From the NCBI GenBank assembly GCA_035998445.1, contig DASYHQ010000013.1, positions 1-64,000 of the forward strand: a stretch of 64,000 bases of DNA. Direction: 5' to 3'. Made by a program: the position numbers and the translations under genes. Below, one piece after another: positions 22,544 through 58,500 of this stretch (its first letter is position 1; each line of letters begins with the position of its first letter). The notes under the pieces are model-generated. The model saw only the letters and a program-made list of their open reading frames with translations. It was not told the origin of the DNA and did not search any database. Origin of the DNA: Tepidisphaeraceae bacterium (GTDB lineage: Bacteria > Planctomycetota > Phycisphaerae > Tepidisphaerales > Tepidisphaeraceae).

Positions 22544-22622
22544 AGTAGCGTGGACCAACGGCGGCAGGGGGCGTGGGGCGGAGCTTGAGGGGCGCACTGT
22601 GACGATCGAAGGGAGACGTGGG

Positions 22623-24992: not shown

Positions 24993-25762
24993 GCATCGCA
25001 ACCGCCAACACCCCTTGGACCCCCAATGCCATCGTCGGCCTGTGCGATCACGCGATCTTGCACCCAGCGCTTACCGATGCAGACCTTCGCGACCAGTTGA
25101 AGGCCCTGCGAGCGTATCCCGTCGCAACCGTCTGCATCAAGCCCTACGCGGTGGCTACCGCGGTCGAGGTGCTCAGCGGCACCAACATTGGCGTGGGCAC
25201 CGTGATCGGCTTCCCGCACGGCTCATCGGTGCCTGAGATCAAAGCCGAAGAAGCGGAACGCGCCTTCCGCGATGGCGCCCGAGACGTGGACATGGTCGTC
25301 AACGTCGGCAAGGCACTCTCGCACGACTGGGACTATATCCATCAAGACGTTCGGGCCGTTCTCGACGTCACGCGCAAGTACAACGGCGTCATCAAAGTCA
25401 TCTTTGAAACTGATCTCATTACCGACGACACCGTAAAGATCGATCTCTGCAGGATCTGCAGTGAGTTGGCGGTGGATTTCATCAAGACCTCGACGGGCTT
25501 TGGCTTCGTCAAGCGAGCGGATGGAAACTATAACTACCAGGGTGCCACCGAGCATGACATCGCGCTGATGAAGCGACACTCGTCGCCGGGCATGGGCATC
25601 AAACCTTCCGGTGGGATTCGGTCGCTGGACGACGTACTGAAGTACGTAGCCTTGGGTGCCACACGTATCGGTACTGCGTCGACGTTTGCCATTCACGCGG
25701 AAGCCACCGCTCGCTTCGGCGGGGCCGCCAAATCATCGATTGACGTCAGCATTGCGTACTAG
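24989..25762 (+). CDS. deoC: deoxyribose-phosphate aldolase family protein
   Basis: GTG 24989 overlaps the previous stop (GTGA), with GAGAGGA upstream. The 257-residue protein carries the DeoC class I aldolase landmarks: LCDHAILHPALTDADL (family pattern IDHTLLKP), NIGVGTVIGFPHGSS, DVDMVVNVG, the Schiff-base lysine in VDFIKTSTGFGF and the second lysine in GMGIKPSGGIRSLDDVLKY. DeoC splits 2-deoxyribose-5-phosphate to acetaldehyde and glyceraldehyde-3-phosphate. Placement directly behind a glycosidase and before a ribokinase-like kinase suggests it cleaves the phosphorylated product of the sugar released here. That could be deoxyribose or another sugar; the true substrate is uncertain. Confidence 0.93.
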   Translation: MSIATANTPWTPNAIVGLCDHAILHPALTDADLRDQLKALRAYPVATVCIKPYAVATAVEVLSGTNIGVGTVIGFPHGSSVPEIKAEEAERAFRDGARDVDMVVNVGKALSHDWDYIHQDVRAVLDVTRKYNGVIKVIFETDLITDDTVKIDLCRICSELAVDFIKTSTGFGFVKRADGNYNYQGATEHDIALMKRHSSPGMGIKPSGGIRSLDDVLKYVALGATRIGTASTFAIHAEATARFGGAAKSSIDVSIAY

Positions 25763-25799
25763 TATTGCCCACGTCCGACGCGCGTTCGGGAAGCCGATT

Positions 25800-26738
25800 A
25801 TGAAACCTCGCATCACCGTCATTGGCAGCTCTAACGCGGACATGATTATGAAGCTGCCGCGCCTTCCGGGCCGTGGTGAAACTGTCACAGATGGACAGTT
25901 CGTCTCGACGTTTGGCGGCAAGGGGGCGAACCAAGCGGTGGCCGCCGCGCGGGCCGGGGCGGATGTGAAGTTCCTGACCTGCGTCGATACAGATGTGCTC
26001 GGGCAGGCGATGGTCGACAACTTTGTTCGTGATGGCATCGATACCCGGCACGTCCTTCGCACGTCCGACGCGCCGTCCGGTGCAGCCTTGGTCATGTTCG
26101 ACTCCAACGGCGAGAACTACCTTGCCGTGGCACCCGGATCGAACTATTGCATTCGTCCTGCGCACATCGACGACGCGCGTGAGGCAATCGCCGGTTCCGA
26201 TATGTTGGTCATGCAAATGGAGATTCCCGCCGACACGACGTTGCGCGCCTTAGAGGCTGCGGCCAAGGTGAACGTGCCCGTGCTCTTCAACTTTGCACCC
26301 GTGCGTACGCGCGACGTGCCGCTGAGCGCATTAATGACTGGCTTGGTGGTCAACGAAGTAGAGGCCCACGAGTTGTCCGGCATGCCGGTTCGCACGCCCG
26401 AAGACGCTCAGCGGGCAGCGCGGCACCTGTTGAACATGGGGCCGAAGTTCGTCGTGGTCACGCTCGGACGCGATGGCGCCTGTGCTGCTTCCGCGGAGGG
26501 CGCCTTTCGCGTTCGCTCAATCCCAGTGCAAGCGGTGGATACGACTGGCGCCGGCGACACTTTCTGCGGCGCACTTGCGGTCGCGCTAGCGGAGGGGCAA
26601 CCCTTGCCTCTCGCGATGCGGTTCGCGACTGCGGCGGCTGCAGTTAGCGTGACCATAATGGGAGCGCAGCCCTCCATTCCACCCCGTAATAGCATCGAGT
26701 CAACACTAGCGCGCTTTGACTCAATTCGCAGCACATAG
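25800..26738 (+). CDS. rbsK: ribokinase-like PfkB-family sugar kinase
   Basis: This 312-residue kinase starts at ATG 25800, 38 nt after deoC. It shows the PfkB signatures: an N-terminal ITVIGSSNADMIMKLPRLPG, the substrate site FGGKGANQAVAAARAGADV, NGENYLAVAPGSN, NFAPVR and NEVEAHEL, and the C-terminal catalytic motif VDTTGAGDTFCGALAVALAE with the base Asp in GAGD. Close relatives phosphorylate ribose or deoxyribose at O5. Paired with DeoC it gives a kinase-aldolase route into central metabolism. The gene symbol reflects family; whether ribose, deoxyribose or another sugar is the substrate is not shown by sequence. Confidence 0.9.
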   Translation: MKPRITVIGSSNADMIMKLPRLPGRGETVTDGQFVSTFGGKGANQAVAAARAGADVKFLTCVDTDVLGQAMVDNFVRDGIDTRHVLRTSDAPSGAALVMFDSNGENYLAVAPGSNYCIRPAHIDDAREAIAGSDMLVMQMEIPADTTLRALEAAAKVNVPVLFNFAPVRTRDVPLSALMTGLVVNEVEAHELSGMPVRTPEDAQRAARHLLNMGPKFVVVTLGRDGACAASAEGAFRVRSIPVQAVDTTGAGDTFCGALAVALAEGQPLPLAMRFATAAAAVSVTIMGAQPSIPPRNSIESTLARFDSIRST

Positions 26739-38091: not shown

Positions 38092-38703
38092 ATGCTGAGC
38101 AACACTTTTATCGCTGTTTTGGGTTCGACGATGCTGATTGGCGCAACCGCTGGCTGGTCCGACGCGGCGCTGCTGGTCCGCCCCGTGCAGTCCAGCTACA
38201 CCGCTGCGGCCAACGGGTCGGTGTCGGTCGTGGTGGAACTGGTGGAAACCGGTGGCACCACCGTTGTTCGGGACGGTGGCGGACTCTACAGCATCGGCTT
38301 TGGCCTGACGCGAACGGTCGGCGACGCGGTGGTCGCGGCCGCGGCGCGCAACATGGCGTTCGACCGGCAGAACAGCGGTTCGACAACCGTGTTTCCCACG
38401 CTGACGTACCAGCTTTGGGCCGAGCAGGACGACAACTTCGGCGACGCCGGGCCAGGCGCAGGCGGGTCGGCCGTCGTTGCGCTGGCCACGCTGACGGTCG
38501 ACGCCGGGGCCACGGGCGGCACGTTCCAACTCGGCGACTTCGGGCCCAGTGACCAGAACGTCCTCTACAGCGGCGACGGGCTGGACGGCAGCCTCTCCTA
38601 CGGGTCGTTCACCGTCACCGCCACCACCGCCGTGCCCGAACCGGCGACCTTCATGACAGTAACGCTCGGCGTCGCCACGCTAATGCTACGCCGCCGACGT
38701 TGA
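38092..38703 (+). CDS. small PEP-CTERM protein
   Basis: I start at ATG 38092 (GGAGAG upstream). The 203-residue protein has a signal peptide (FIAVLGSTMLIGATAGWSDA), then a single beta-sandwich-like domain (VRPVQSSYTAAANGSVSVVV, TVFPTLTYQLWAEQDDNFGD, ALATLTVDAGATGGTFQLGD). It ends VPEPATFMTVTLGVATLMLR plus arginines. The domain looks like the cohesin-type Ig fold seen in short PEP-CTERM proteins. That would make it a possible partner for the dockerin-like repeats of the gene just upstream, but this is inference. Its stop overlaps the open frame of the next gene. Confidence 0.85.
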   Translation: MLSNTFIAVLGSTMLIGATAGWSDAALLVRPVQSSYTAAANGSVSVVVELVETGGTTVVRDGGGLYSIGFGLTRTVGDAVVAAAARNMAFDRQNSGSTTVFPTLTYQLWAEQDDNFGDAGPGAGGSAVVALATLTVDAGATGGTFQLGDFGPSDQNVLYSGDGLDGSLSYGSFTVTATTAVPEPATFMTVTLGVATLMLRRRR

Positions 38704-38774: not shown

Positions 38775-41700
38775 ATGCTGAAGAGTCTTAAATTGCAGTT
38801 GGCATTTCTGTTCGCCTTCGTGATGGCGGTCGGCCCGGCGCACGCCGAGCCGTTGCCACCGATCCAGAGCGGGTTCGACGCACCGGATTCGGGACAATGG
38901 TTTTCAGGTTGGACGGCGGGCGACCCGGCAGTGGTGTCGCGGGTCACTGAGCAGGGCACCTCGTTCGTGCGTCTGCAACTGAAGCACCAGGGCAGCGCCA
39001 TGATCGAGCGGTCGATCGCGATCGACCCGGCTTGGCAATCTGTCGAGGTGACGTCACGGCTGCGCGGCAAGGACGTTGCGCCCGGCGAGAAGAACTACGA
39101 AACGCCGATGGTGCAGGTGATCTTCAAGGACGCCGCCGGTGAACTGGTCGGCGGTTGGCCGACGAAGTTGCAGGTGGCCGCGGATGCCGATTGGCACGAA
39201 CAACGACACGTGTACGCAGTTCCGGACGGGGCGGCGAACGTCGTGCTTCAATTGTTCATCCTGAACAGCGCCGGCACCTTCGAAGTGGATTGGGTCAGGC
39301 TGAAACCTCTACGTAAGGACGAACAGCCGAGCGCCGCAGGACAGACGTTGCGGTGGGACTTCGAGAAGCTTGGCAGCGGTTGGCCCGTTGGGTTCTCGCG
39401 AGGTGACCAGAGCCAAGTTTCGATCGTCGAAGAGGCAGGCAATCACTTCCTACGCGTTAACCGCCGGACGAAGGACGAGTCGGCAATTATCTCCAATTCG
39501 ATCGTCGTCGATCCAAAATGGTCAGCCGTGACCGTCGGCGCGCGCGTGAGGATGGCAGACCTGCAGAAGGGCGAACAAGCCTGGATGACGGGAAATGTCC
39601 AGAGTGCCTTCTTCGACAACTCGGGCGAGCAGGTGGGTGGCTGGCCACCCAAGATCGGCGCTCAGGCCGATATGGACTGGTCGCCGCGCACCCAGCGTTA
39701 CGATGTTCCACCTGGCGCCGCGACGTTGCGGGTAGACATCGGCATGTGGGGCTCATCCGGTCGGTTTGATGTGGACGACCTCACGATCACGCCGCATGGG
39801 CCTAGCGACCTGCCTGCCGGTGAACGGCCACGGTGGGGGGAGGAACCGGTCGTCGCGCTCGGCGAACATCGAAGTGAGATCGTCCTGAACGGCCTGTGGC
39901 GCTTCGTGCCCGGCACAATCAAAGAGCCACAGGAGCGGCATCTGGGTTGGGTGCGCGTGCCCGCCAGTTGGCATGCTAGTGCGGGGCCCGGAATGGTCGT
40001 GCGCGGAGCCGAGTGGGGCCAGATCGACCTGAAGGAACTTCAGGCCGCCACCTACGAGCGGCCGATCGAGGTGCCACGCGATTGGGACGGTCGAGCCGTC
40101 GTGCTTCGACTCGATCGCGTCAGCACCGATGCGGTGGTCTACGTGGACGATAAGCGCGTCGGTGAAATCCACTGGCCCTCCGGCGAGGTCGATCTAACCT
40201 CGCTCGTGTCGCCGGGGAAGAAGCACTCGCTGCGCATCGACGTCTTCGCGACCCAGCACGACGAGGAGGTGCTGGAGTTCATGGAGACGATGGACCTTCA
40301 GGTGACGCGCCGCAAGAGCACGCTTGAGACGCGGGGGCTTACCGGAGACGTCGTGCTGCTTTCGCGTCCGCGGGGCGCCCATCTGACCGATGTCGCCGTC
40401 GTTACCTCAGTCCGCAAGAAGCAACTCAGCGTCGACATTGAACTGCGCGACGTCGCGACCGCCGGACGGGCGACCGTGTCGGCCGAGGTGATTGACCGCG
40501 CCACGGGCGACATTGTCAAGGCGTTTCGCGATACCGTGCAGGTTGAAGCGGTCGCGACGCAACGGGTGCGCGCGGGTTGGGACTGGGCGGACCCAAAGCT
40601 ATGGGATGTCGGACAGCCGAACCTGTATGACCTGCGGTTGACCATCACGAACGATGGCGATCTGCGCGACTCGCAGCGGGTCACGTTCGGGTTCCGTGAA
40701 TTCTGGACAGAGGGCAAGCAGTTCATCCTGAACGGTACGGCGATCCGCCTGCGACCGTTCCTTGCCCCCAACGGCTACTTCGCGTTCGACGGAGTTCCAT
40801 CAGCGGCCGCAGGACGATTGGCAGGGCTGCAGAAGTCGGGCTTCAACTTCATCGAGGTCTGGCCGAACGACATCACCCGCCGTGGCAGCGACCATACGTT
40901 CGACGTGTGGTACCGCGAGGCCGACAAGCTCGGCCTGCTAATCTCGGGCGTCCTGCCAACGGTGAACGGGGCGATCATCGACTCCAACTGGCGTCAGATC
41001 TGGAACACCGAGCGCGGCAAGACCGCCTGGCAGCCGCGCGTCGCGGACCACCTGCGCGGTCGAAGGAACAGTCCCAGCGTGGTTATGTGGGCGATCAGCG
41101 GCAATTTCTTCGGTCACTCGCACGATCAGAACCCGCGAATGATCGGCCGGCGGGGCGTGTATGACGAAAAGCCTGCACGCGTAGCCGGTCGCGAAGCGGT
41201 CGAGATCGCCCGCGCGCTCGACCCGACGCGCGCCATCATCACGCACCAGGGTGGCGACGTGGGCGACGTCCACACGATCAACATGTACCTGAACCTCATC
41301 CCGCTGCAGGAGCGCGAGGAGTGGCTCAGCGAATGGGTCGAATCGGGCGAGATGCCGCTAATGCCCGTCGAGTTTGGCGTGCCGCAGTTCAACACCTACC
41401 TGCGCGGCCGCAACGGCTTCGGCGGCAGCATCCTCACCGAGCCTTGGCTGACGGAGTTTGCGGCAATCTACTTCGGCCGTGAAGCCTACGCCGCCGAACC
41501 CGACGAGTACCGACAGGGGATGCGCACGCGGTTCAAGCAGGAGCAAGAGTACGCGAGCTGGCACGCTGGCAGCGAGCTGCTCGGTCAATCCGAGAACATG
41601 CAGCGGTTGACCAGCCTGTTCATCAAGAACACCTGGCGCACCTGGCGGACGTGGGGCATCACGGGTGGCATGATCCCGTGGGACCAAGGCTACATCTGGT

Positions 41701-44009
41701 CGCACCATGCCGATCAGAACACGACAGAGGACCTCGCCTTCGTTCCGGGCCAGCGCGGCCGATATGCGCCTACGCTGCCTCTGCACGCGAAGGCAACCTT
41801 CCAGCCGCCGCACTCCAAGCTAACGCCAAGCGGCAAGGTGTTTGTGGCCAATGGTGGCACGACGCTCGCGTGGATCGCCGGTGGCAATGCCGAGCACTTC
41901 ACCGACAAGGACCACCTGTTTACCGCGAGCGATCGGGTATCAAAGCAGATCGCGATCATCAATGACGAACGCGTTGAACTTCCATACGCGGGCACGTGGC
42001 GGGCCAGCGTAGCTGGCCGAGAAGTTGCCAGTGGCAAGGTCGCGGGGCGAATCCTTCCCGCCACCAACCGGTTCGAGCCGATCGAGTTCACCTTGCCCGC
42101 AGACGCCACCGAACCGAAGCAGGCGGGCGAGATCATCATCGAGATGCTAATCGGCCAGACCAGCCACACCGACACGTTTGCGTTTCGCACGTTCAAGCAA
42201 CCCGTCCCCACCAAGCGCACCGTGGCCGCGGTCGATCCGCGAGGCCTCTCGACGAAGATGCTGCGATCGGTTGGTGCGGAGGTGGCTGGCTTGGATGCGG
42301 CTGGTACAGCATCACCTGTTGTCATCGGACGGCAGGCGTTGGACGGAGATCCGAACGCGCTCGGGCAACTCGAAGCGCAAATTCGGGCCGGTCGTACTGT
42401 GATCGTCTTCTCGCAGTCGCAGGAAGTCCTGTCTCGCTATTTCGGCTTCCGAACCTCACCACACGTATCGCGGCGCGTGTTCCGAGTCGACGAAGGTCAT
42501 CCGATCACGGCTGGTCTGGACGACGCCGACTTGCGCGACTGGAACGGCTCGTCGACGCTGATCGAGCCGAAGCCCGATATGACCGGGCCAAACGTAAAGC
42601 TTGGCGCGTCGTCACCCTATTACGGATGGCACTGGGGCAACCGTGGCTCCGTCGCCACGGGTGCGATCGAGAAACCGCACCACAGCGGCTGGACGCCAAT
42701 TCTCGAATGCGAGTTTGACCTGGCGTATTCGCCGTTGATGGAATTGCAGGTGGGCAAGGGGCGGGTGATCTGGTGTCAGTTGGATCTGGAAGATCAGATC
42801 CACACGCCGTCGGCTCGAATCCTGCTCGACCAGTTGCTCTCCTATGCTGCCAAACCGAGCGAGCGGTCGTCCGCGCCTGCCGTGTACATCGGCGATGACG
42901 CCGGACAGAAGATGCTTGCATCGCTGGCGCTATCGTTCGAGGTTGCTGAAGGGCTGCCGGACGCTGGGCAATTGGTGATCTTAGGGAGTGGTGCATCGGT
43001 ATCCGATGAGGCGCTACGGTCGTACATCGAGCAAGGTGGGCGCGTGCTGGTGCTGGCTCAGGACGCCGAGAGTGGCCGGCTCGGCGTAAGTTACGAAAGT
43101 GGCAGCACGACGGGCGCGCTTGCGCTACCGAGTTGGCCGGAGACAAACGGGCTATCGCCGTCGGATCTGCGCCTGCGGAACACGGCCGACCTGAACCGGA
43201 TTCGCTCGGGTGGCGAGGTGGCAGCCAACGGATTGCTGTCACGATTGGCGATCGGGCGCGGCGTGGCGGTCTTCACTCAGATTGATCCGACGGCGCTCGA
43301 CGCCGACAGCAAGACGTACATGCGCTTTAGCCGCTGGCGCCAGACGAGGGCGCTGTCGCAGTTGCTTGCCAACATGGGTGGCCAGTTCATTGCGGACCGT
43401 CGCGTCTTCAAGCCTGTCGACGCGGTTGAACCGTCCGTCGATCTCGCCGGAACGTGGCGCGCCAAGTACGTTACGCGCATCGAAGACCCCAACGGCGACC
43501 TCCACCCCGATCCCGGCATGTCCGAATCGGCCGAGGCGCTGTTGGCGGTGACGGTGGCTGACGATGAGTGGGACAAAGTGAAGGCCCCGGGTTCGCTCGA
43601 GGACCTCGGAGCGCCTTGGGCCGCGGCCAACGGTGAGATCGTGCTGCGGAAGACGATCGACGTAACCGAAGCGATGGCCGCGCGGGACCTTGTCCTGGAA
43701 CTCGGTCCCATCGACGATTTCGACGTCACCTTCGTCAACGGCCAACGCGTCGGCGGCAGCCCGGATAGCGCCACGAGCCAGTGGAACGTCGATCGCAAGT
43801 ACGCCTTGCCCGCGGGCCTGATCAAGCCCGGCAAGAACGTGATCGCCATTCGCCTATGGGATCAGTTTGGCGGTGGCGGGTTCAACGGCCCGGCCCCCAA
43901 GATGAAGCTCGCGCCAACGCCAACGATCGATGCGGCGCCGCTGTATCATGCTGACTACCGCACGGACTACGAGCTGGGCGATGATCCGTATCGGTACTAC
44001 CGCTGGTAG
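38775..44009 (+). CDS. giant secreted GH2-like protein with duplicated N-terminal domain
   Basis: I choose ATG 38775, which opens a signal peptide (LKLQLAFLFAFVMAVGPAHA); a TTG at 38700 adds non-signal residues. The mature 1744-residue chain has two tandem carbohydrate-binding-type domains (about 28-195 and 195-350). GH2 modules follow: a jelly-roll (WVRVPASWHASAGPGMVVRG, TYERPIEVPRDWDGRAVVLR), an Ig domain, and a barrel (FNFIEVWPNDITRRGSDHTF). At the GH2 acid/base site (consensus SNE) it has VVMWAISGNFFGHSHD, with no Glu. MPVEFGVPQFNTY may carry the nucleophile. Next are a glutamine-amidotransferase-like segment (TVIVFSQSQEVLSRYFGF, VDEGHPITAGLDDADL) and a C-terminal GH2-type jelly-roll. Specificity and even activity are uncertain. 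Confidence 0.85.
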   Translation: MLKSLKLQLAFLFAFVMAVGPAHAEPLPPIQSGFDAPDSGQWFSGWTAGDPAVVSRVTEQGTSFVRLQLKHQGSAMIERSIAIDPAWQSVEVTSRLRGKDVAPGEKNYETPMVQVIFKDAAGELVGGWPTKLQVAADADWHEQRHVYAVPDGAANVVLQLFILNSAGTFEVDWVRLKPLRKDEQPSAAGQTLRWDFEKLGSGWPVGFSRGDQSQVSIVEEAGNHFLRVNRRTKDESAIISNSIVVDPKWSAVTVGARVRMADLQKGEQAWMTGNVQSAFFDNSGEQVGGWPPKIGAQADMDWSPRTQRYDVPPGAATLRVDIGMWGSSGRFDVDDLTITPHGPSDLPAGERPRWGEEPVVALGEHRSEIVLNGLWRFVPGTIKEPQERHLGWVRVPASWHASAGPGMVVRGAEWGQIDLKELQAATYERPIEVPRDWDGRAVVLRLDRVSTDAVVYVDDKRVGEIHWPSGEVDLTSLVSPGKKHSLRIDVFATQHDEEVLEFMETMDLQVTRRKSTLETRGLTGDVVLLSRPRGAHLTDVAVVTSVRKKQLSVDIELRDVATAGRATVSAEVIDRATGDIVKAFRDTVQVEAVATQRVRAGWDWADPKLWDVGQPNLYDLRLTITNDGDLRDSQRVTFGFREFWTEGKQFILNGTAIRLRPFLAPNGYFAFDGVPSAAAGRLAGLQKSGFNFIEVWPNDITRRGSDHTFDVWYREADKLGLLISGVLPTVNGAIIDSNWRQIWNTERGKTAWQPRVADHLRGRRNSPSVVMWAISGNFFGHSHDQNPRMIGRRGVYDEKPARVAGREAVEIARALDPTRAIITHQGGDVGDVHTINMYLNLIPLQEREEWLSEWVESGEMPLMPVEFGVPQFNTYLRGRNGFGGSILTEPWLTEFAAIYFGREAYAAEPDEYRQGMRTRFKQEQEYASWHAGSELLGQSENMQRLTSLFIKNTWRTWRTWGITGGMIPWDQGYIWSHHADQNTTEDLAFVPGQRGRYAPTLPLHAKATFQPPHSKLTPSGKVFVANGGTTLAWIAGGNAEHFTDKDHLFTASDRVSKQIAIINDERVELPYAGTWRASVAGREVASGKVAGRILPATNRFEPIEFTLPADATEPKQAGEIIIEMLIGQTSHTDTFAFRTFKQPVPTKRTVAAVDPRGLSTKMLRSVGAEVAGLDAAGTASPVVIGRQALDGDPNALGQLEAQIRAGRTVIVFSQSQEVLSRYFGFRTSPHVSRRVFRVDEGHPITAGLDDADLRDWNGSSTLIEPKPDMTGPNVKLGASSPYYGWHWGNRGSVATGAIEKPHHSGWTPILECEFDLAYSPLMELQVGKGRVIWCQLDLEDQIHTPSARILLDQLLSYAAKPSERSSAPAVYIGDDAGQKMLASLALSFEVAEGLPDAGQLVILGSGASVSDEALRSYIEQGGRVLVLAQDAESGRLGVSYESGSTTGALALPSWPETNGLSPSDLRLRNTADLNRIRSGGEVAANGLLSRLAIGRGVAVFTQIDPTALDADSKTYMRFSRWRQTRALSQLLANMGGQFIADRRVFKPVDAVEPSVDLAGTWRAKYVTRIEDPNGDLHPDPGMSESAEALLAVTVADDEWDKVKAPGSLEDLGAPWAAANGEIVLRKTIDVTEAMAARDLVLELGPIDDFDVTFVNGQRVGGSPDSATSQWNVDRKYALPAGLIKPGKNVIAIRLWDQFGGGGFNGPAPKMKLAPTPTIDAAPLYHADYRTDYELGDDPYRYYRW

Positions 44010-44115: not shown

Positions 44116-46182
44116 TCAGTTGCCGAACACTGTCATCTTTGCCCCTTGGTCCGCGACGAACGTCGCGCTGATCTTGGCTCGCCCATCCGGCAAACGTTCT
44201 ACGCGGACGCCATCGTGGCACCACGGTTCACCCATCGCGACCGGATGCTCGGTGACGTAGACGTACGTCCCTGGCACGTTGGCGAACGCGCAGACAATGC
44301 CGCGACCGGTCGCAGGGTTCAGCTTCTCATGCCATTCAGGCGTCGCGCCCGTAGTCCCGTTTCGCACGGGTGGTGCGGCGGCGACATCATCGCGCACCGC
44401 TTTGTACGCGGCCACGCCGTCGCCGATTCGCTTGACGCCCTCGGGCGAGATCGCCAGCAGATCGCCCCAGATGCCGTTCTGCCCGAGCACGAGCGAGGCT
44501 ACACAGTTGTCCTGACTGCCGGCAGGATCGTCGGGCAGGTAGTGAGTCAGAAACAGGTTCGACGGGATCCACCGGTCGAACGCAAGCGGGTAGCGCATGA
44601 ACCACGGTCGCGCACGGCCGGGGTAGAACAGCAGGTTCGCGTTGCCGTCGGCAATGTTAGCGCGGGGGATATTGAAGTCCCAGAAGTACGGACCGTTGTT
44701 GACGAGAAAGAACTTGCCGACGGCGAGAAAGCTAAGCCCGAAGCAGCGGCCGCGTTCGGTCATGTCGAAGTCAACGATGGCGCCGGGGCATGCCTCGGTC
44801 AGCCGCTCGACGATCTTGCTGAGGTAGATCGGGAGTTGGTAGGCGCACGCGTCACGCCGCTCGTCAACTGAGTGTTCGGGCCCACCATGGTTGTGGCCGG
44901 AGGCGTCGCAGTCGTACTGGCTGATGGCGTCCCACTTGAAGTACGTGACACCCACCTCACGCGACAGCCGGATCAACTCGTCGGCGAACCGGCGCCAATA
45001 CCGGCTGACGAGACACAACCGCAAAGAGGCCGGCGTCTCCCAGATCTCGTGCACCTTTGGCTCACCGTCGCCCTGGCGCGTCACGCAATCGCGGTGTTCC
45101 TTGTACGCCGCGCTGTCCAGCGCAGCGGCGCTGTCAAACCATAGTCCCAGCTTCATTCCGTGCTGGTCCAGCCGTTGTTTGACGGTCCGCAGGTTATCGG
45201 TGAATCGATCCGGATTCACCTGCCAATCCCCCGTGTGCGCGAACCAGCCGGTGTCGATCACGAACACCTCGATCCCCATCCGGTGCGCCACTTCGATCTC
45301 GGCCAAGATGCGTTCCTGCCGCATGTCGGCCAGGTATGGCTTTTTGTGCCAGTTGAAGTTGCGCTCCTGGAAGTTCCAGGTGTTGTAGAAGACGTAAGGC
45401 TTGCGCGTCTCAAGGTTCTCGCATTGGTGCAGCCGAACGAATTCACGAAACTGCGTCGCGATCTGGTCGCGGTGGCCGGCGACGATCGCAACATCGAACC
45501 AGACACTTTCGAAGGGGTCAGACGGTCCCAGCAGTTGGCCGTTCAGGCAGTTTCCTTTCACGCCGTTCAGCGTGACCGTCCGGTCGGCCGTGAGGTCGAA
45601 GCGGAGGTAGGCATCGGGGAATGTTGAACCGTGCTCGTAAGCGAACAGCACATGCGCGTGCCCGTCGCCTGCAAGCAGAATCGGGCCCATAATGCCAAGA
45701 CTGGCGTCGAACTCCTTCTGCCGAACGGGCACTTCGTTCGGTGCAAAACTGTGGACGAGGTCGACGAACTCGCTCAGACGCACCTCGGTAACGTCAGGCC
45801 AGGCTGACAGTGAGAACTGCGCATAAGTCGGCACGTCGCCAGCCGTACGATTGGTGAGGCGCCGCGGCCGTTTCGATTCGATCGTGTAACGAAATCGGAC
45901 GACCGGGCTGTCCGCCGCGACACGGAATGTGATCGTGATCGACAGGCCATCGCCGACATGGCCCACGTCGCCACGCCATTGGTGTTCAACGACACCGTTG
46001 CGAAGCGTGCGCGGCTCCACGCTCGGCTTGAGCGATGCCGGGCGCATCGCGACGCGCTCGCCGTCGATCACCAGGGATGGGGCGGCGAACGCCAATGCGT
46101 GTTCGCCCGTGCGGGCGACGCATCGCCAGAGCGTGTCGTCGTTCGCGGGAAGAAGGTCGATCGTGAGGTGATCGTTGTTCAT
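44116..46182 (-). CDS. GH36-like alpha-galactosidase family protein
   Basis: This 688-residue minus-strand protein has an N-terminal beta-sandwich (VEHQWRGDVGHVGDGLSITI) and a barrel with GH36/melibiase landmarks: YVFYNTWNFQERNFNW, GIEVFVIDTGWFAHTGDWQV, DQHGMKLGLWFDSAA, a probable nucleophile Asp near 418 in VTYFKWDAISQYDCDASGHN, and a downstream FDMTERGRCFGLSF. The C-terminal beta domain is VYVTEHPVAMGEPW. No signal peptide is present, so it should act in the cytoplasm on imported alpha-galactoside-like sugars. It lies 145 nt downstream of, and in the same direction as, the XylR-type regulator, and converges with the 1744-aa gene. The ribosome site is weak. Confidence 0.87.
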   Translation of the reverse strand: MNNDHLTIDLLPANDDTLWRCVARTGEHALAFAAPSLVIDGERVAMRPASLKPSVEPRTLRNGVVEHQWRGDVGHVGDGLSITITFRVAADSPVVRFRYTIESKRPRRLTNRTAGDVPTYAQFSLSAWPDVTEVRLSEFVDLVHSFAPNEVPVRQKEFDASLGIMGPILLAGDGHAHVLFAYEHGSTFPDAYLRFDLTADRTVTLNGVKGNCLNGQLLGPSDPFESVWFDVAIVAGHRDQIATQFREFVRLHQCENLETRKPYVFYNTWNFQERNFNWHKKPYLADMRQERILAEIEVAHRMGIEVFVIDTGWFAHTGDWQVNPDRFTDNLRTVKQRLDQHGMKLGLWFDSAAALDSAAYKEHRDCVTRQGDGEPKVHEIWETPASLRLCLVSRYWRRFADELIRLSREVGVTYFKWDAISQYDCDASGHNHGGPEHSVDERRDACAYQLPIYLSKIVERLTEACPGAIVDFDMTERGRCFGLSFLAVGKFFLVNNGPYFWDFNIPRANIADGNANLLFYPGRARPWFMRYPLAFDRWIPSNLFLTHYLPDDPAGSQDNCVASLVLGQNGIWGDLLAISPEGVKRIGDGVAAYKAVRDDVAAAPPVRNGTTGATPEWHEKLNPATGRGIVCAFANVPGTYVYVTEHPVAMGEPWCHDGVRVERLPDGRAKISATFVADQGAKMTVFGN

Positions 46183-46327
46183 GGAGGTTTACCTGCAGGA
46201 TAAGACGTGGAGCACATGTCAGCGTTGTTCGCCGACGGGAGCGACTATGTAACCCAAGCGGGCAGGAATCGGAAGAGGGGCGTCACGTGGACATCTCGGC
46301 CGCTAATGAAGCTGGTAGACGGTGGCG

Positions 46328-47479
46328 TCACTCCACCCTATTGCCAGGCGCGTTTGAGCATGACGCATCGCGATTGCGCTGGCGGTACTCGTGGGGCGTG
46401 GCACCCGTATCGTGCTGGAACAAGCGGTGGAACTGGGCGCGCGTCCCGAATCCGCAAACCTTGGCGACGTCGCTGACGCGCAGGGTCGAGTCGGTCAGCA
46501 TCTGCCGCGCGCGGTCCAGACGCGTCCGGCGGATGTGTCCTAACAACGTTCGGCCAGTCGCGGCCTTAAAGCGACGTTCCAGCAGGCGCCGGCTGATGGT
46601 CGTCGCATCGGCGACCTGGTCAACGGTGATCTGGCGGTGGGCGTTCTGCTGGATGAACGCCGCGGCTGCTGCAGCTTCGGCGTCGGACATGACAAGAATG
46701 TCACTCGATCCGCGAACGGCGATGCCCGATGGTGGCAGGATGCTCGATCTGCGCGCCGCCCGCGGATCCGTGAGGTGCTCGGCCAAGAGGTGGACGGCCT
46801 CGGTTCCCACCCGTTCCCACGGCACGCGCACGCTCGTCAACTCCGGTTCCGACGCCAACGTGCGCACGCCGTCATCGTTCACTGAGACGACGGCCACTTC
46901 CGATGGGACAGCGATGCGGCCCAGCTGGCAGACTTCGGTGACCGCGCCACCGATCGGGTCGTCTGCAGCAAACACGCCGACGGGCTTCGGCAGTGCGGTG
47001 AGCCAGCTCAACATAGCGTCGAACTCCTCGGGCGTGTTGTGATACGCCACGGGACAAACCGAAAAGCTGCGCGCCCGCGTGCCGATCGCCTCACGAAACC
47101 CGATTCGCCGTTCCGTACCTTGGATCGGGTACCCGACAAAGCCAAAATGCCGAAATCCTCTCTCCAGCAGGTGCTCGCCAGCCAGCCGTCCAATCTGATG
47201 GTGATCCAGGATGACTCCGGCAACGCAACCAGGTTGCCCCAACCGCAGCACGCTCACGTACGGGATGCCCGCCCGTTCATAATCTAGCGGCCCCGGCCGA
47301 TCGATTGCCGATCCGATCATGCCGCGCATACCGCACCGCAGCATAAAGTCCGGCGCGTTCTCCCCTAACCCGACGATCCAGTTGCGCGCGTGCGTCGCCC
47401 GCAGCGCACCGAGCAAGATGCGACCCATATATCCGGAATCGGGAAGACGCACTGCGATGCGGATGGGGGAGTCGGCCAT
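46328..47479 (-). CDS. XylR-type regulator (LacI-like sensor fused to AraC HTH)
   Basis: I prefer ATG 47479 (MADSPIRIAVRLPDSGYMGR); a start at 47524 is possible but would overlap the palindrome at 47525. The 383-residue protein has a LacI-like sugar-binding domain (about 5-265: DHHQIGRLAGEHLLERGFRH, FGFVGYPIQGTERRIGFREA, PKPVGVFAADDPIGGAVTEV). It ends with an AraC double HTH (ITVDQVADATTISRRLLERR, FKAATGRTLLGHIRRTRLDR, DVAKVCGFGTRAQFHRLFQH). This is the architecture of the xylose regulator XylR. It is divergent from the epimerase/GH38 operon and upstream of the GH36-like gene, so it probably activates both. Confidence 0.9.
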   Translation of the reverse strand: MADSPIRIAVRLPDSGYMGRILLGALRATHARNWIVGLGENAPDFMLRCGMRGMIGSAIDRPGPLDYERAGIPYVSVLRLGQPGCVAGVILDHHQIGRLAGEHLLERGFRHFGFVGYPIQGTERRIGFREAIGTRARSFSVCPVAYHNTPEEFDAMLSWLTALPKPVGVFAADDPIGGAVTEVCQLGRIAVPSEVAVVSVNDDGVRTLASEPELTSVRVPWERVGTEAVHLLAEHLTDPRAARRSSILPPSGIAVRGSSDILVMSDAEAAAAAAFIQQNAHRQITVDQVADATTISRRLLERRFKAATGRTLLGHIRRTRLDRARQMLTDSTLRVSDVAKVCGFGTRAQFHRLFQHDTGATPHEYRQRNRDASCSNAPGNRVE

Positions 47480-47524
47480 TGGTTTACCAACACGCTCGCC
47501 CATTAAAGCTAACGTCATTCGCAT

Positions 47525-47553
47525 ATTGTTACAACAATGACGCGATTTGCGTC
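47525..47553. promoter_or_regulatory. two adjacent inverted repeats in the divergent control region
   Basis: ATTGTT-AC-AACAAT (47525-47538) is a perfect 14-bp palindrome. Directly next to it is GACGC-GATTT-GCGTC (47539-47553). They lie between the XylR-type gene (start 47479) and the epimerase gene (start 47650). This is the expected place for the regulator to act on both. Confidence 0.6.
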
Positions 47554-47649
47554 TTTGTTTCTACTGGGCCTGTGGCAGATTAGGTGCGGCTAGCCGCAAC
47601 GCGCCAGTAGGTGAGTTGCGTGCGGGCGGGATCCCAAGGAGAACGGCGG

Positions 47650-48972
47650 ATGGACGATCAGGATGTATGGGCCCTGCGGCGGGCGAGCGAGGAGATCCGC
47701 GAGCATTTTGAGAACGGCATCGTGCGCTTCTGGACCGAACGTTCCATCGATCGGGAGTATGGCGGGTTCAACGTTCGCTTCGACCAGAATGGCAACTTCA
47801 TTCCCGGCGAATCGGACAAAAGCATCATCTCGCAGACGCGCGCGATCTGGGGGTTTTGTAACTTTTACCGCCACACGCGCAACCCGCTGCACCTACAGGC
47901 GGCTCGGCAGGGTTTCGACTTTCTCGTGCGCAACTTCTGGGACGATCGCCATGGTGGCTGGTACTGGATGACCGCCCGTGACGGCACTCTGATCGACCCC
48001 GGCAAGGTCGTCTACGGTATCGCGTTCGCGATCTACGCGTTATCCGAGTATCACGACGTCTCCGAAGACCCTGCCGCGCTCGACTACGCTTGCCGTACGT
48101 TCGACTGCCTTCAGAAGTACGCGGTGGACGTCGAAAACGGCGGATACCTTGAGAATCTTGAGGAAGACTGGCGGTCGTGTGGTGGCGGCAAAATGGCCGG
48201 CGACCGCAAGACGCTCAACACGCACATGCACGTGATGGAAGCGTTCACCACGCTGTACAAGGTCTCGCGCGAAGAAGTGCACCGGCGGCGGCTTAGGGAA
48301 ACGATCGACCTGATCCTGAAGAAGATGATTCACCCGATCAGCGGATGCTGCATGTCGCAGTTCGACTTCGCCTGGAACAACATTCCCGCGCGCTCGATCT
48401 ACCGAAGCTGGGACTTCGAGCGTCAAGGTGAGCCGCTGGACACAGACGAAGAGGCGACGTGCTACGGACACAACGTCGAGTTCGCGTGGCTGCTCGTCCG
48501 CGCCGGCGACGTGCTCGGGTTGGACCACCGTCATTACGCCGAGACGATCAGGCCCATGCTCGACCACGCCGTTCGATACGGCGTCGACCCCAAGCACGGC
48601 GGCGTCTTCTGCAGCGGGCCGCACCAAGGGCCGGCCACCAATCGTGACAAGGAGTTCTGGGAGAACATGGAAGTGCTGCCTGGCTTCCTCGATGCCTACG
48701 AGGTGCTTGGCGACCCGATCTACCTGAACGCGTTTCACGCCTGCTGGGAGTTCTCGCGCACCCACATGATCAACCACGAACTGGGCGAGTGGATCTTCCT
48801 GGCCAAGGAGGATGGCACGCCCGTGTGGAGCCACCTCGGCAACAACTGGAAGATCAACTATCACTCGGGCCGGTCGATGACCGAAGCGCTGACGCGCATC
48901 GACCTGATCCTCAACCCGAACCGCCCCAACACAGCGGCCGACGCTTACGCGACTGGACCCTCGCACCGATGA
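47650..48972 (+). CDS. AGE-family epimerase/isomerase (cellobiose 2-epimerase / mannose isomerase type)
   Basis: AAGGAGA precedes ATG 47650, which I prefer over an in-frame start at 47611. The 440-residue protein is an (alpha/alpha)6-barrel N-acylglucosamine 2-epimerase-family enzyme: RFWTERSIDREYGGFNVRFD, KSIISQTRAIWGFCNFY, GGWYWMTARDGTLIDPGKVV, LNTHMHVMEAFTTLYKVSRE, YGHNVEFAWLLVRAGDVLG and NYHSGRSMTEALTRIDLILN. The histidines in THMH, GHN and NYHSGR match the catalytic and binding positions. Such enzymes interconvert glucose- and mannose-type ends. It has no signal peptide and shares a 4-base overlap (ATGA) with the mannosidase-like gene, so it probably processes mannose-containing products in the cytoplasm. 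Confidence 0.9.
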   Translation: MDDQDVWALRRASEEIREHFENGIVRFWTERSIDREYGGFNVRFDQNGNFIPGESDKSIISQTRAIWGFCNFYRHTRNPLHLQAARQGFDFLVRNFWDDRHGGWYWMTARDGTLIDPGKVVYGIAFAIYALSEYHDVSEDPAALDYACRTFDCLQKYAVDVENGGYLENLEEDWRSCGGGKMAGDRKTLNTHMHVMEAFTTLYKVSREEVHRRRLRETIDLILKKMIHPISGCCMSQFDFAWNNIPARSIYRSWDFERQGEPLDTDEEATCYGHNVEFAWLLVRAGDVLGLDHRHYAETIRPMLDHAVRYGVDPKHGGVFCSGPHQGPATNRDKEFWENMEVLPGFLDAYEVLGDPIYLNAFHACWEFSRTHMINHELGEWIFLAKEDGTPVWSHLGNNWKINYHSGRSMTEALTRIDLILNPNRPNTAADAYATGPSHR

Positions 48973-51329
48973 TCGACGACATACACCTGATCCCCCATAC
49001 GCACGCCGACTTCGGTTACACCGATCTTCCGAGCACGGCATGGCGATTTCTCCCGCGCTACGTGCGCGATGCGCTATCGTTGGCCGAGGCGACCGATTCG
49101 TTTCCAGAAGAGGCACGCTTAAACTGGACGATCGAGATCACGTTCCAGTTGGAGGCCTTCCTCGCGCAAGCAAGCGAACGGGAAAAAACGCAGCTCGGAA
49201 AGCTGGTCGACGAGGGCCGGTTCGAGATCGGGGCCATGCCGTTCCACACGACGGCTTTGCTGACCCAGCCTGAGTGGCAAGCGATGCTGGACCGGTCGGC
49301 GGCGCTCTTCGAAATGTATCGGCCGCGCACCTGCTTTCAGAACGACATCAATGGCCTGCCGTGGGGTCTGATTCCGTCGTTGTCCGACCGTGGGGTGCGG
49401 TACGTGATGATGGGCATCAACACCTACAACGGTGGCACGCCACGGCCCGCGCCGTACCCCTTCTGGTGGCAGGGGCCAGATGGTCGAAAGCTGCTCGCGT
49501 GGACGGGACTACACTACGCCGCCGGCTTCGCGTTCTTCCATGAGGCTGAATGGCGCCGCGGGCCGGTGCCGGCGTACCACGACGTTTGGTACAACACCCC
49601 AGGTATCGGCGAGACGTGGGACGCAAGCCCGGCCGCGTTGCGTGCGGCGCGTGAGGTGCTGTCGCGAAAGATCGAGTCGTCGCTCGGCCATTACCCCCAT
49701 CGCACGCTCGGCTTGCAAGTGACCAACATGTGGCGAATGGACAACGATCCACCCGCGATTGGCCTGTGCGAGTTCGTGCGCGCCTGGAATGACGCTGGCC
49801 ATGGCCCGCGGTTGCGGTTGTCCACACCGGCCAAGTTCCTCTCAACCCTCGAGCGCGAGGCGGGTGACCGAATCGACGTCGTCCGCGGTGATTGGGGCGA
49901 GTGGTGGGCGGACGGGGTGACCTCCATGCCGACCGAGGTGGCCCTGGCGCAGCGCGCCAAGACGGCACTAGCGGAACTTCCCGCGGCGCTAAAGGCGGTG
50001 CAGGCGCAGGACGAGCATCACGCCGGCTTCCGCCAAGGCTGGTTTGACGCCGCGATGTTCACCGAGCACACCTTCGCGTCGTACGAGTCGCTGCCGCAAC
50101 CGTACTCGCCGTTGTCGATCGGCAACTACGTGCAGAAGGCGGACTACGCCTGCCGCGCCGACGAGGCCGCACGCGTGATATGGGCCGAGGGTGTCCGGCG
50201 TTCACCACGGTTCCGGTCCTTCTCGCAGACCAGACGGCTGGCCGTGCTAAATCCGGGCGGCACACTTCGAAGCGGGTGGGTGCAGATCCCGTTCCCACCG
50301 CTTCGCGAGCCGGCCAACGCGTTGCGCGACGTGTCGACGGGAAAGATTTACCCCTTCGAAGCGCTGATCGGCCCCACCTGGTCGGCAGCCGACGAGCAGG
50401 GGCCACAGCAGTTCGAAGTGCCGAACGACATCTGGACCCTGACGACCACCGGCCTGCGCTTCTACTGCGACTCGGTCCCGCCGGGACAGGAACGGGTATT
50501 TGAACTCGTGCAGCAGGCCGACATGCCTACGCCTGTAACGGCCGAAGTGAAGGGACGGAGTGCGCGCGTCTCTTGGGAATGGGAAGCGGCCGCGGGAAAA
50601 CTCCGGTCGTTGAAGGACGAGGCCGGAAACGAACTGATTGATCCCGACGCGCCGTACGGCTTAGGACAGGTCGTTCTCGAACTGCCGCAAGGTTATGGCG
50701 CCCGCGAGCCGCTGCTGTCGCACGATTGGACGCGCATCGCACACCTCATGAAGTACGAGTCGCCGCGACTGCTGTCGTGGCGGCCAGAGCCGTCGCACTA
50801 CGGCGCGAGGTTCGTGAGCGAATGGGAACACCCGAACCTGTACCGCGCGCGACAAAATTGGGAATTCCGCGATGCCGTTGGCGGGGTTGACCTCACGACG
50901 ACGTTCTGGTTCCGCGAGCATCACGCGCCGCAAGCGGTGCTCATTGCCTTCCCATTTTTGCTGCCCGACGCAGAGATGACGTACGCATCGTTGGGCTACC
51001 CCACGCGCGTCGGACACGATCAGATGCCCGACTCGTGCGGAGAATACCAGATGGTCCACGACGGCGTGAAAGCGACCACCGATCGCCGCTGCATCGTGCT
51101 GGCGACACCGGACACGCCCTTGGGCTGTTTTCAGAGCATCTCGCTCCGAACCGGCCGCAAGGCATTCGTGCCGTCGAACGCTCACTTCTATTCGGTGGTA
51201 ACGGAGAACTATTGGAAGGACAACTTCAGTCACACGCGCGCCGCCAAGATGTCCGTCCAGCACCTGATCGCATCGGGCATCGAACGGGGTGAAGCGATCG
51301 GTCGCCTGCTCGCGTACCCGTGCCGGTAA
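48969..51329 (+). CDS. GH38-like alpha-mannosidase family protein
   Basis: ATG 48969 overlaps the epimerase stop (ATGA). The 786-residue protein opens MIDDIHLIPHTHADFGYTDL, with His10, His12 and Asp14 in the GH38 zinc-site pattern H-x-H-x-D-x-G. The likely nucleophile is Asp126 in FQNDINGLPWGLIPSLSDRG. Further core pieces are TGLHYAAGFAFFHEAEW and LGLQVTNMWRMDNDPPAIGL, with a C-terminal beta region (GVDLTTTFWFREHHAPQAVL). Family members hydrolyse alpha-mannosides using zinc. There is no signal peptide. Coupling to a 2-epimerase and control by a XylR-type regulator suggest breakdown of imported mannosides. It is a divergent member, so the linkage is open. Confidence 0.8.
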   Translation: MIDDIHLIPHTHADFGYTDLPSTAWRFLPRYVRDALSLAEATDSFPEEARLNWTIEITFQLEAFLAQASEREKTQLGKLVDEGRFEIGAMPFHTTALLTQPEWQAMLDRSAALFEMYRPRTCFQNDINGLPWGLIPSLSDRGVRYVMMGINTYNGGTPRPAPYPFWWQGPDGRKLLAWTGLHYAAGFAFFHEAEWRRGPVPAYHDVWYNTPGIGETWDASPAALRAAREVLSRKIESSLGHYPHRTLGLQVTNMWRMDNDPPAIGLCEFVRAWNDAGHGPRLRLSTPAKFLSTLEREAGDRIDVVRGDWGEWWADGVTSMPTEVALAQRAKTALAELPAALKAVQAQDEHHAGFRQGWFDAAMFTEHTFASYESLPQPYSPLSIGNYVQKADYACRADEAARVIWAEGVRRSPRFRSFSQTRRLAVLNPGGTLRSGWVQIPFPPLREPANALRDVSTGKIYPFEALIGPTWSAADEQGPQQFEVPNDIWTLTTTGLRFYCDSVPPGQERVFELVQQADMPTPVTAEVKGRSARVSWEWEAAAGKLRSLKDEAGNELIDPDAPYGLGQVVLELPQGYGAREPLLSHDWTRIAHLMKYESPRLLSWRPEPSHYGARFVSEWEHPNLYRARQNWEFRDAVGGVDLTTTFWFREHHAPQAVLIAFPFLLPDAEMTYASLGYPTRVGHDQMPDSCGEYQMVHDGVKATTDRRCIVLATPDTPLGCFQSISLRTGRKAFVPSNAHFYSVVTENYWKDNFSHTRAAKMSVQHLIASGIERGEAIGRLLAYPCR

Positions 51330-55548: not shown

Positions 55549-58500
55549 ATGAATATTCACGTATTCCAGCCACGCCGTTTCATGCTCTGCCGTCTCTTCT
55601 TGGCCGTCGTCGCGCTTGCTAGCTTCGAGGTTACCGCCGCGGCAACCCAACCACTGCAAACGTCGGTCGTCGCCACGCGCACGCTGCAAGAGCAGGGGAT
55701 GACAATGGAGGGCGTCGGCGTGCAACCGGTCGAGGTGAAGGGCACGGAGGCGTGGGTCAGCCGCCACAAGTCGGTGCCCGCCGACGAGTGGGCGCGGTCG
55801 TTCCTTTTCACGATTACGGACGAGCGGTTCAAGAAGGGCAAGGTGCCGGTGGTCGACGTGGAAGTCGTCTACATGCACGAAGGGAACACGAAGGTAGAAC
55901 TCGTTGCCGACACCGCGCGCGGCAGCCAGGTGGTGGGGAGCGGTTGGGGAAACAAGAAGGAATGGCAGACGCTCCACTGCACGATCGACGACGCCTACTT
56001 CGGCGGCCGTGCGACCGGAAACGACCCGAAGAAGCTGCCGGTCGACGGGTTCGACCTTCGCTTGAACGCTTGGGCCGGCGATCTTCACATCAAGCGCATC
56101 ACCGTGACCGGGCGCAATCCCGCGAACCCCGCGCCCGACGAATGGGCGCGATACCTGTCGATAAAGGACGTGACCGACGATCGCGGGTTCATTGTCGCGC
56201 CAGGCGAGTCCAACCAGATTACGTTCAAAGTCAAAAACGAGGCGCTTCTAGCGGCAAACGCCGTCGCACGGCTTGAGATCGTGGACGCGGGCGGCAGAGT
56301 AATCGGAACGACGGTGCAAGACGTAACGCTCGCCGCGCGGGCTACGGAAACAGACCAGCCGGTCATCACGCCGATCACGTTCACGTTCGACGCCGCCGAC
56401 CGACAGACGGGTGCGTACGGCGCAAGGTTGTCGGTGGACGTCGGTAGCGGCGAAAGCCGCCGTACTGCCATTGCGTATGAGCAGGCGGTTGCGGTCGCCG
56501 GGCCGCTGGACCTGTTCATCATCTTCGACCAGCAACCCATTGCGCGGGGACTTGAGTTCGACCGAGCCGATGCAAAGCCGGTGCAGTTGACGGTGGGCGG
56601 ATCCAAGCAGTGGGCTTGGACAAGCACGGGCTCGCGCGGCGGTGACGGGTGGTGGCACTCGATGGTGATGAAGGTGACCGACGAGCGCTTCCGCGATGGC
56701 AAGATGCCCGCCGTCGACGTGCGGGTGACGTACCGCAATGAAGCTAACGCGCCCGTGACGCTGACTGCCGACGCAGGCGCCGGCAGTCGACAGATCGCGA
56801 GCGGGTGGGGCAACAATCCCAAGTGGCAGCAGATGCACGCTCAGATCGACGATGCGACGTTCTCGGCGGGCTCGCACGGCAGCGATCCGAAGGCGATGAT
56901 GTCCGACGGTTGGGACCTGCGCTACAACTCGTGCAATGGGCCGGTGCAACTGCGGAGCATTTTCATTCGTGGATTCGATCGGGACGCCGACCCCGACTAC
57001 GCGCGGCTGTTGAGGTTCGATGGCCTTGATGCTGGGCGTGACCTGTTCGTGTTCGAGCCGGGCGAGGCGCTCGATTTTACGCTCAAGATGCGAAACCTCG
57101 CGCGTGTCGATCTGCCGGCGGAGTACACGGTACGGTTGACCGATGACCTGGGGCGCGAAATGTGGTCGCGCGACGCGCAGGCGAGGATCGCCGGCGACGG
57201 GCCGTTCGACCTGCGCGTCCCGTTCGACAGCACCGGTTTGCCGCAGGGCGTTTACACCCTGGTGCTGGACGTCGGCCGCAGGACGGCCACCGGCGAACGG
57301 CAGGCGTTGATCTCGCCCAGCATCGACCTGATGGTCGCCGAACGTTCCCAGATCGCCAAGGCGAAGCCAGGTGAGTTCATGTACGGCGTTGACTCCGGTG
57401 TTGGCTACGCCGACGAGCGCTGGATGCAGTGGTTGGACTTCATGGGCTGCGACATCACGCGTGGCAATGGTGCCAACCGCATCAACGACGACTGGGCCCC
57501 CGCGTTCGCGGCATTCGATAGGTACAACATCCGGAACACCGTTTTCGCGGACGTGCCGTGGGATGAGGACCCATCGCGGCGCGCCCAAGAAGTGCGGGAC
57601 GTGGCTGCGAAATCGGAAGCCAGAGCCAAGACGTTCGGCGATCGCATTACTTACTGGGAGCTTGGCAACGAACCGGACCTGACGTTCTTCTACCCCGGGC
57701 CGATCGACGAGTACGTGAAGGGGTTCGTCGAGATCTCCGCGGCCATTCGGCGGGGCAATCCCAACGCCATTGTCATGAACGGCGGCCTGTGTCATGCGGG
57801 AGAGGAAGCGGATCGTCGGGCGCGCAGGTTCATCGAACTCGTACCCTCCGAATCCATTCAATGCTGGGCCTTCCACGCACACGGCCCCGGCGCGCGATCG
57901 GAGCGCGTGGCGTACGAGCGCATGTACACGCTCGCCAAGCAACACGGCAAGGCCGACCGGCCGATCATGGACACCGAAAGTGGCGTCAGCGCCCGCACCC
58001 CGGGCCAGAAGCGCATCCAGGCCCGAACGGCCGTCGAGAAGATGGTCTACGCCCAGAGCGTCGGCATGCCTACGCTGATGTGGTTTCGACTGAACATCCT
58101 GGGCGGCGACGGAGACTACACCAACACGAAGAACGTGCGCGAGCCACGGCCCGTCGTCCTCAGCTATCGAACGATGGCCAGGACGCTGAAAGGCCTGACA
58201 TTCTCCCGTAAGCTCGAGGTGAGCGCGTCTAGCGACAACGGTGGTGAAGCGTATCTGTTTGCACAGAAGGACGGTGACGGGCGCGCGATCTGCATGTGGG
58301 CGACCGGCCGCGGGGGTGGTACGGTCACCCTTCGCCTTTCCGATGGCCCGCAAGGCGTGACGGATGTACGGATAGTCGATCTGTTCGGCAATGTCACGCC
58401 GCTCCCTCATGCCGGGCGCGGCGGGGTGGTCACCGTGCCGCTGGAACTGGATCCCGGTTACGTCACGTGGCGCGACGCAAGCGCGCCGGCGACGGTGGCG

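Follow-up and report, generated by a model that had tools for sequence, protein, structure and literature searches.

Enzymes of family GH2, among them the beta-galactosidase LacZ, the beta-glucuronidase GUS and CsxA, share a core of jelly roll, Ig and TIM-barrel domains and a Glu nucleophile. The Glu on strand beta4 is regarded as indispensable and serves to annotate activity. Here we describe a protein of 1744 residues (P0001) from a Tepidisphaeraceae bacterium (GCA_035998445.1) that has the same core and nucleophile and belongs to a whole clade without the beta4 Glu. It is encoded on contig DASYHQ010000013.1, of which positions 1-64,000 of the forward strand, 64,000 nucleotides in all, were analysed and are referred to as the window. 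A previous sequence-only reading of the window had drawn attention to the missing Glu and had offered three explanations for it, namely that another residue is used, that the protein is a non-catalytic binder, or that it represents a distinct family.

Domain layout and active-site residues

The coding sequence runs from the ATG at 38775 to 44009 with the stop codon included, as the earlier reading had it, and the program-made ORF list opens the same frame at a TTG at 38700. All features given below lie on the forward strand. Residues 1-24 (38775..38846) were read by eye, rather than with a predictor, as a probable Sec signal peptide, and the protein is therefore probably secreted. Two tandem, carbohydrate-binding-like repeats follow (about residues 26-188 and 189-346; 38850..39812), which were delineated by blastp of one half against the other (40% identity over 138 residues, E 6e-32); Pfam returned nothing for residues 1-343. 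These repeats are optional within the family and missing from several members, and stretches resembling them occur elsewhere in the query genome. The three-domain GH2 core is present according to both Pfam and structure matches. It consists of the N-terminal jelly roll (PF02837, GH2_N; residues 371-532, 39885..40370), the immunoglobulin-like domain (PF00703; residues 535-641, 40377..40697) and a TIM barrel (about residues 645-975, 40707..41699) assigned from Pfam, an AF2 model and structure search, with the GH2_C barrel match at residues 731-873 scoring 20 against a cut-off of 21, one bit short. The AF2 model, model 1, covers residues 345-1540 with the C-terminal tail outside it (pLDDT 90.7, pTM 0.89), and all 50 matches listed for it were titled GH2-type enzymes, the best being 6b6l (VIA Z 25.9, 525 residues, rmsd 9.0).

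Downstream of the barrel lies a region that was named glutamine-amidotransferase-like (GATase-like) by eye and delineated from the model and from conservation (about residues 1148-1540, 42216..43394). Strands and helices are seen in the model from about residue 1148, and the region is strongly conserved, with E1299-K1300, C1334 and D1337 as near-invariant residues (Glu1299 in 40/42, Cys1334 in 40/42 and Asp1337 in 41/42 aligned rows); residues 1176-1540 had no Pfam match above cut-off. The region may take part in the function of the protein. It is followed by a second jelly roll (about residues 1552-1720, 43428..43934), recognized from the match of residues 1595-1708 to the sialate O-acetylesterase chain 7kmm (E 1.7e-15) and unmatched in most rows of clade B, one of the two main clades of the family. 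Both segments had been noted from the sequence as oddities after the barrel, and both are present; the GATase-like segment is, however, no peculiarity of this protein, since it is also matched, in part, in some Glu-bearing GH2 relatives. The chain closes with the tail GDDPYRYYRW (43977..44006), conserved in the family, in which Trp1744 is the last residue and directly adjoins the stop codon.

The acid/base position is occupied by Asn777 (41103..41105) at the tip of beta4, as judged from spacing, model superposition and family count, and we regard the exchange of Glu for Asn at this position as virtually certain. The string VVMWAISGNFFGHSHDQN, pointed out earlier at the GH2 SNE position, is present in the protein. 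Of the 45 family members that can be read five residues past the beta4 Trp, 44 have Asn and one (L060) has Gln, so that beta4 offers neither Glu nor Asp at the acid/base position, and Glu is found on either flank in 0/45. The 45 members take in both L060 and L052; alignment A1, with 44 rows, is without these two, and its Asn count of 43/43 therefore excludes the Gln of L060. At the same Trp spacing, Glu stands in 11/11 Glu-bearing relatives of clade C and in 28/30 of a wider Glu-bearing set (34 loci fetched from a longer match list, minus four repeats of genes), the two exceptions being L147 (Ala) and L145 (unreadable). The claim that the acid/base Glu is absent is borne out by these counts. 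The earlier reading was also right that Glu is replaced, but the stand-in is the Asn of SGN itself and no residue after it.

Superposition on GH2 structures gave the same picture. Model 2, which ends at residue 779 with the C-terminal tail outside it, paired up to its last residue with solved structures in 50/50 matches listed. Asn777, at chain end minus two, falls on residue 461 in LacZ 3dyo, 447 in 4ypj and 469 in CsxA 2vzu, with end pairs that shift by 1-2 positions among entries for a single protein (6jz1 420 and 6jz4 421, 5t98 444 and 5t99 446, LacZ 3dyo 463 and 9hpm 464) and a mean pLDDT of 71 over the last five model residues. We take residue 461 of LacZ and residue 469 of CsxA to be acid/base residues, and 4ypj to be the B. 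circulans enzyme BgaD; the title of 2vzu itself names a D469A mutant. For Glu447, PMC5145203 gives the role of acid/base residue. On the basis of this superposition, Asn777 stands at the place of the Glu in a GH2 fold.

Chance, sequencing error and decay of a single gene were ruled out as causes of Asn777 because the Asn is common to members in many genomes. We further considered that Asn777 might correspond to the Asn usually found just ahead of the Glu. This register was rejected, as the Trp-Asn spacing equals the Trp-Glu spacing of Glu-bearing relatives; in addition, hmmsearch (row 5uj6) and hhalign of clade A, which includes the query, against three other Glu-bearing sets both pair the Asn with Glu, and the end pairs of model 2 likewise speak against it. 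MAFFT and hhalign against clade C favour the other register, which requires an insertion of one residue and aligns Asn777 with the conserved Asn preceding the Glu. In either register, Glu is absent from the acid/base place of the 45 readable members.

The remainder of the active site is well preserved. Glu866 (41370..41372), in the motif VEFG, provides the nucleophile Glu on beta7 and pairs with the segment PFIMCEYAH of T. maritima LacZ where the hmmsearch alignment has a second, weak stretch. Together with His824 (41244..41246) at the beta5 tip, Asn836, Tyr838, Glu894 and Arg958, it is invariant in 44/44 aligned rows, L060 and L052 standing outside these rows; Trp969 is unvarying in 43 rows. 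Tyr838 and Trp969, placed by eye, presumably correspond to the active-site Tyr and Trp of LacZ. A further difference is found at the beta2 tip, where Glu-bearing GH2 proteins mostly have an Arg beside the nucleophile. Here residue 694 is Glu in the query (40854..40856) and in 17/17 clade A rows and Tyr in 18/20 clade B rows, the Arg being lost from both clades. In one decayed member, L060 (also L115 / L174, G311:C8), positions 777, 824 and 866 are occupied by Gln, Trp and Ala, respectively, and the conserved tail is missing. Because of the invariant ring including Glu866 and the joint losses in L060, the data speak for an active site that works and was rebuilt around the lost Glu rather than left as a relic, and we consider it likely that the Asn-bearing protein is an active enzyme.

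The C-terminal tail and its covariation with the loop after beta4

The last residues directly before the stop codon read DDPYR(Y/F)(Y/F)RW in family members, and this C-terminal tail, shared across the Asn-bearing family, is new here. A stop codon closes 41 of the 46 ORFs, and of these 37 end in PxRxxxW-stop and 39 have Trp as the last residue, L072 and L052 carrying looser Trp-ending tails. The other two are L024, which has a frame change, and L071, which runs into Ns. Searching DNA for the exact tail pattern yielded 23 matches in 12/294 phylum genomes and 0 for the reversed control, with 23/23 located on proteins matching the family profile. Nine further stretches fetched around tails gave eight new proteins with readable beta4, and Asn was present in 8/8. 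By contrast with the family, the tail was seen in 0/24 Glu-bearing relatives that end in a stop, comprising nine of the 11 clade C ORFs (0/9) and 15 ORFs from the wider set of 30 (0/15); none of the nine ends in Trp. The tail persists where the second jelly roll is unmatched, that is in most of clade B, L030 and L033. Clade B includes short proteins such as L059 and L057, read as 1318 and 1330 residues, in which this domain has no match. The divergent member L207 (G277:C502) has the Asn and the nucleophile together with a changed tail, KDPYEYIYW. A literature search of partial coverage found no description of the Asn-bearing clade or of the DDPYR tail. The motif followed by a stop codon offers a simple marker for finding the family and avoiding misannotation.

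While listing tails, we noted by eye that Arg1743 changes together with Asp784 (41124..41126), which lies in the loop after beta4, seven residues past Asn777; the test was run after this. A column was taken as testable if at least 60% of it was one residue, with few gaps and at least three departures. In the first test, Asp784 alone stood out for Arg1743 among 230 testable columns (n=37, p 8.0e-5; next column 4.2e-2): each of the two residues was lost in six rows, and five of these rows were shared. Two members found after the rule had been noted, L205 and L207, both lack Asp784 and Arg1743, and with these included 7 of 8 and 8 losses were shared (n=39, p 4.0e-6), the next of 235 columns reaching 1.1e-2. 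Lowering the limit to 40% gave 632 testable columns and a next best p of 5.2e-3. Asp784 showed no link to other tail columns (next p 0.088). The association was seen within clade A (3 shared of 3 and 3, n=17, p 0.0015) as well as within clade B (3 shared of 4 and 4, n=20, p 0.013). These 37 and then 39 rows comprise members with both a tail and a readable beta4, leaving aside L045 (no beta4) and eight tail-selected rows whose Arg was fixed by the search pattern; Trp and Pro are thus 39/39 by construction, and free tail counts come from the 41 stop-ending ORFs.

The signal comes from nine rows in which Asp784, Arg1743 or both are changed. Two of them break the rule, L036 having lost Asp784 with Arg kept and L038 having lost Arg with Asp kept, and three of the seven co-changes have an Asp one place earlier, at 783. 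On the best tree (45 rows, without L205 and L207), Asp784 was lost five separate times and Arg1743 six, and the five co-changes represent five separate events, three of them on supported branches. Shared ancestry is thereby lowered as an explanation, and a paired sign test on the tree has too few supported pairs to reach significance. Over every tail position, the tests number 1840 pairs, and the first p of 8.0e-5 would not withstand Bonferroni correction for all of them; for tail columns 1735 and 1742, some pairs reach lower p values, presumably due to the split between clades A and B. From the Arg1743-Asp784 covariation, we infer that the loop after beta4, beside Asn777, is the docking site for the end of the tail. 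Such covariation would point to a contact and is no proof of catalysis, and the contact could also belong to a surface or between-subunit site. Nevertheless, we consider a location of the tail at the active site rather probable.

Family, spread and gene neighbourhood

The query genome contains five family genes including the query. One paralogue (L024 / L176, G000:C38:10118-14498) is interrupted by a frame change at about query residue 1475, which may be an assembly error or mark a decayed gene; the conserved tail is found in the next frame, as seen in L176. Relatives at E 1e-60 or better were detected in 18/294 phylum genomes and 8/61 close relatives, both figures including the query genome, and in 21/392 genomes of a second, overlapping draw. 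A scan of genome contigs returned one Chitinophagales, one Obscuribacterales and one Planctomycetota MAG with a family match. Across 296 genomes of the phylum of the Chitinophagales MAG, a match at 1e-40 was obtained only in the seed itself, and the plasmid collection gave no family match at 1e-30.

Most members fall into clade A or clade B, with clade B rows about 27-31% identical to the query and aligned rows overall 27-43%. The Asn-bearing proteins are separated by a single change of state on the tree (SH-aLRT 91), which supports a distinct clade. Of the distinct family suggested earlier, this much stands, as a clade within the GH2 fold. The nucleophile is kept in this clade, and up to eight tail-bearing genes occur per genome. 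The eight tail copies are found in a genome of 3.1 Mb (G284) whose members on the tree belong to clade B, and represent a local expansion. In another locus (L056 / L061 / L172, G296:C364), the second jelly roll can be read and the frame ends without the tail, at an end that looks frame-shifted. The distant relative L147 (G332:C21), mentioned above for its Ala in place of the acid/base Glu, has a nucleophile-like TREFGTP and the end HPYTSNIW, and may represent a third clade.

The query is located in a sugar-degradation neighbourhood (window 19763-26738 and 44116-51329) that contains GH42-like with CBM9, GH78-like, GH36-like, AGE-epimerase-like and GH38 genes, and also genes for deoxyribose-phosphate aldolase and ribokinase. 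LacI- or GntR-type regulators are encoded within the window. GH29 and GH95 genes lie near a paralogue of the query, and xylose isomerase, a xylulokinase-like kinase and aldehyde dehydrogenase are found near L018. These neighbourhoods suggest several deoxy and neutral sugars as potential targets. At 55549-59901, the window also encodes a 1450-aa protein whose one match is a weak CBM9-like one near its end.

Candidate mechanisms and comparison with known systems

We somewhat favour the view that the protein is an active GH2-derived glycosidase whose tail forms part of the active site. The chain end would be pinned beside the lost acid/base place by Arg1743-Asp784, Glu866 would attack and form a glycosyl-enzyme as in ordinary retaining GH2 enzymes, and the acid/base role would be taken over by the tail or His824. 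A docked tail could restore the acid/base function through the free carboxylate of Trp1744 or through Asp1736/Asp1737, and this group would protonate the leaving group and activate water, with Asn777 and His824 holding the tail or the leaving group. The use of another residue, as proposed in the sequence-only reading, is hence the most likely of its three options, with the tail or His824 as the candidates. It is a tentative proposal that the tail supplies the catalytic group, and a more doubtful one that the C-terminal carboxylate of Trp1744, held by Arg1743-Asp784, is the catalytic acid/base replacing the beta4 Glu. If the tail does replace the Glu, the catalytic group would have moved from the barrel to the chain end, and in case of the Trp1744 carboxylate the position of the stop codon would become a catalytic determinant.

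The main rival of the tail for the proton is His824, which may be a new general acid/base while the tail merely shapes the aglycone side. His is known in a general acid/base role from the GH3 NagZ enzymes, the residue never varies in the 44 aligned family rows, Asp takes its place in 9/10 readable clade C rows, and L060, without Asn777 and Glu866, has Trp there. However, the Glu-bearing L121, L143 and L146 also have His at this place, which means that the His does not depend on the Glu being lost, and the family member L052 has Asn; we regard this assignment as unlikely. The mechanism might instead have become inverting, with Asn777 activating water and Glu866 acting as the acid. With the beta2 Arg replaced by Glu or Tyr, Glu866 would have a higher pKa, and both this replacement in the two clades and the near-constant Asn at 777 would fit. 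A catalytic Asn base has been proposed for GH139 and GH95, with a similar relay in GH45 (PMC12282258). For Asn777, though, no activating partner was identified. Moreover, Tyr838 is kept in 44/44 rows, at a position where a Tyr presumably pairs with the nucleophile in ordinary GH2 enzymes, and an inverting mechanism appears improbable.

We likewise attach little probability to the reading that a GH2 enzyme has lost its activity and now only binds glycans. In its favour, none of the readable members has the acid/base Glu, the N-terminus carries binding-like repeats, and a binding role has been suggested for a GH139 member without the catalytic acid (PMC12282258). What disfavours a binder is that Glu866 and the surrounding active-site ring stay invariant in rows only 27-43% identical to the query, and that L060 lost Glu866, Asn777, His824 and the tail together, as expected if these cooperate. 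With Glu866 kept and the acid/base lost, the protein could also be a retaining GH2 enzyme that relies on a good leaving group or an outside base. Plant myrosinase is such a retaining enzyme without its own acid/base. This would leave the tail and its link to Asp784 unexplained, and we hold it to be quite improbable. Finally, the tail could be a sorting or secretion signal with no role in catalysis, given its position at the exact C-terminus and its aromatic last residue, features shared by some sorting signals. A sorting signal would be expected on other cargo as well, yet the exact patterns in the 294 genomes all fall on the Asn-bearing family, and just a single column, in a barrel loop, stood out for Arg1743, which makes a sorting signal very improbable.

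With the sialate O-acetylesterases (7kmm, 9ega), the query shares only the accessory second jelly roll. The inverting alpha-L-fucosidases of GH139 and GH95 resemble it, by description, in having a conserved Asn at a catalytic place, but are described as inverting enzymes in which a Glu acts as the catalytic acid (PMC12282258). Closer to the query are clade C and related planctomycete GH2 proteins (L089-L099, L138-L148), which have the GH2 core and an alignable GATase-like stretch. Unlike the query, clade C keeps NE on beta4 throughout, and the Glu-bearing relatives are without the tail. Compared with GH2 as a whole, the query has Asn in place of the acid/base Glu and Glu or Tyr in place of the beta2 Arg, and has gained a GATase-like region and a C-terminal tail.
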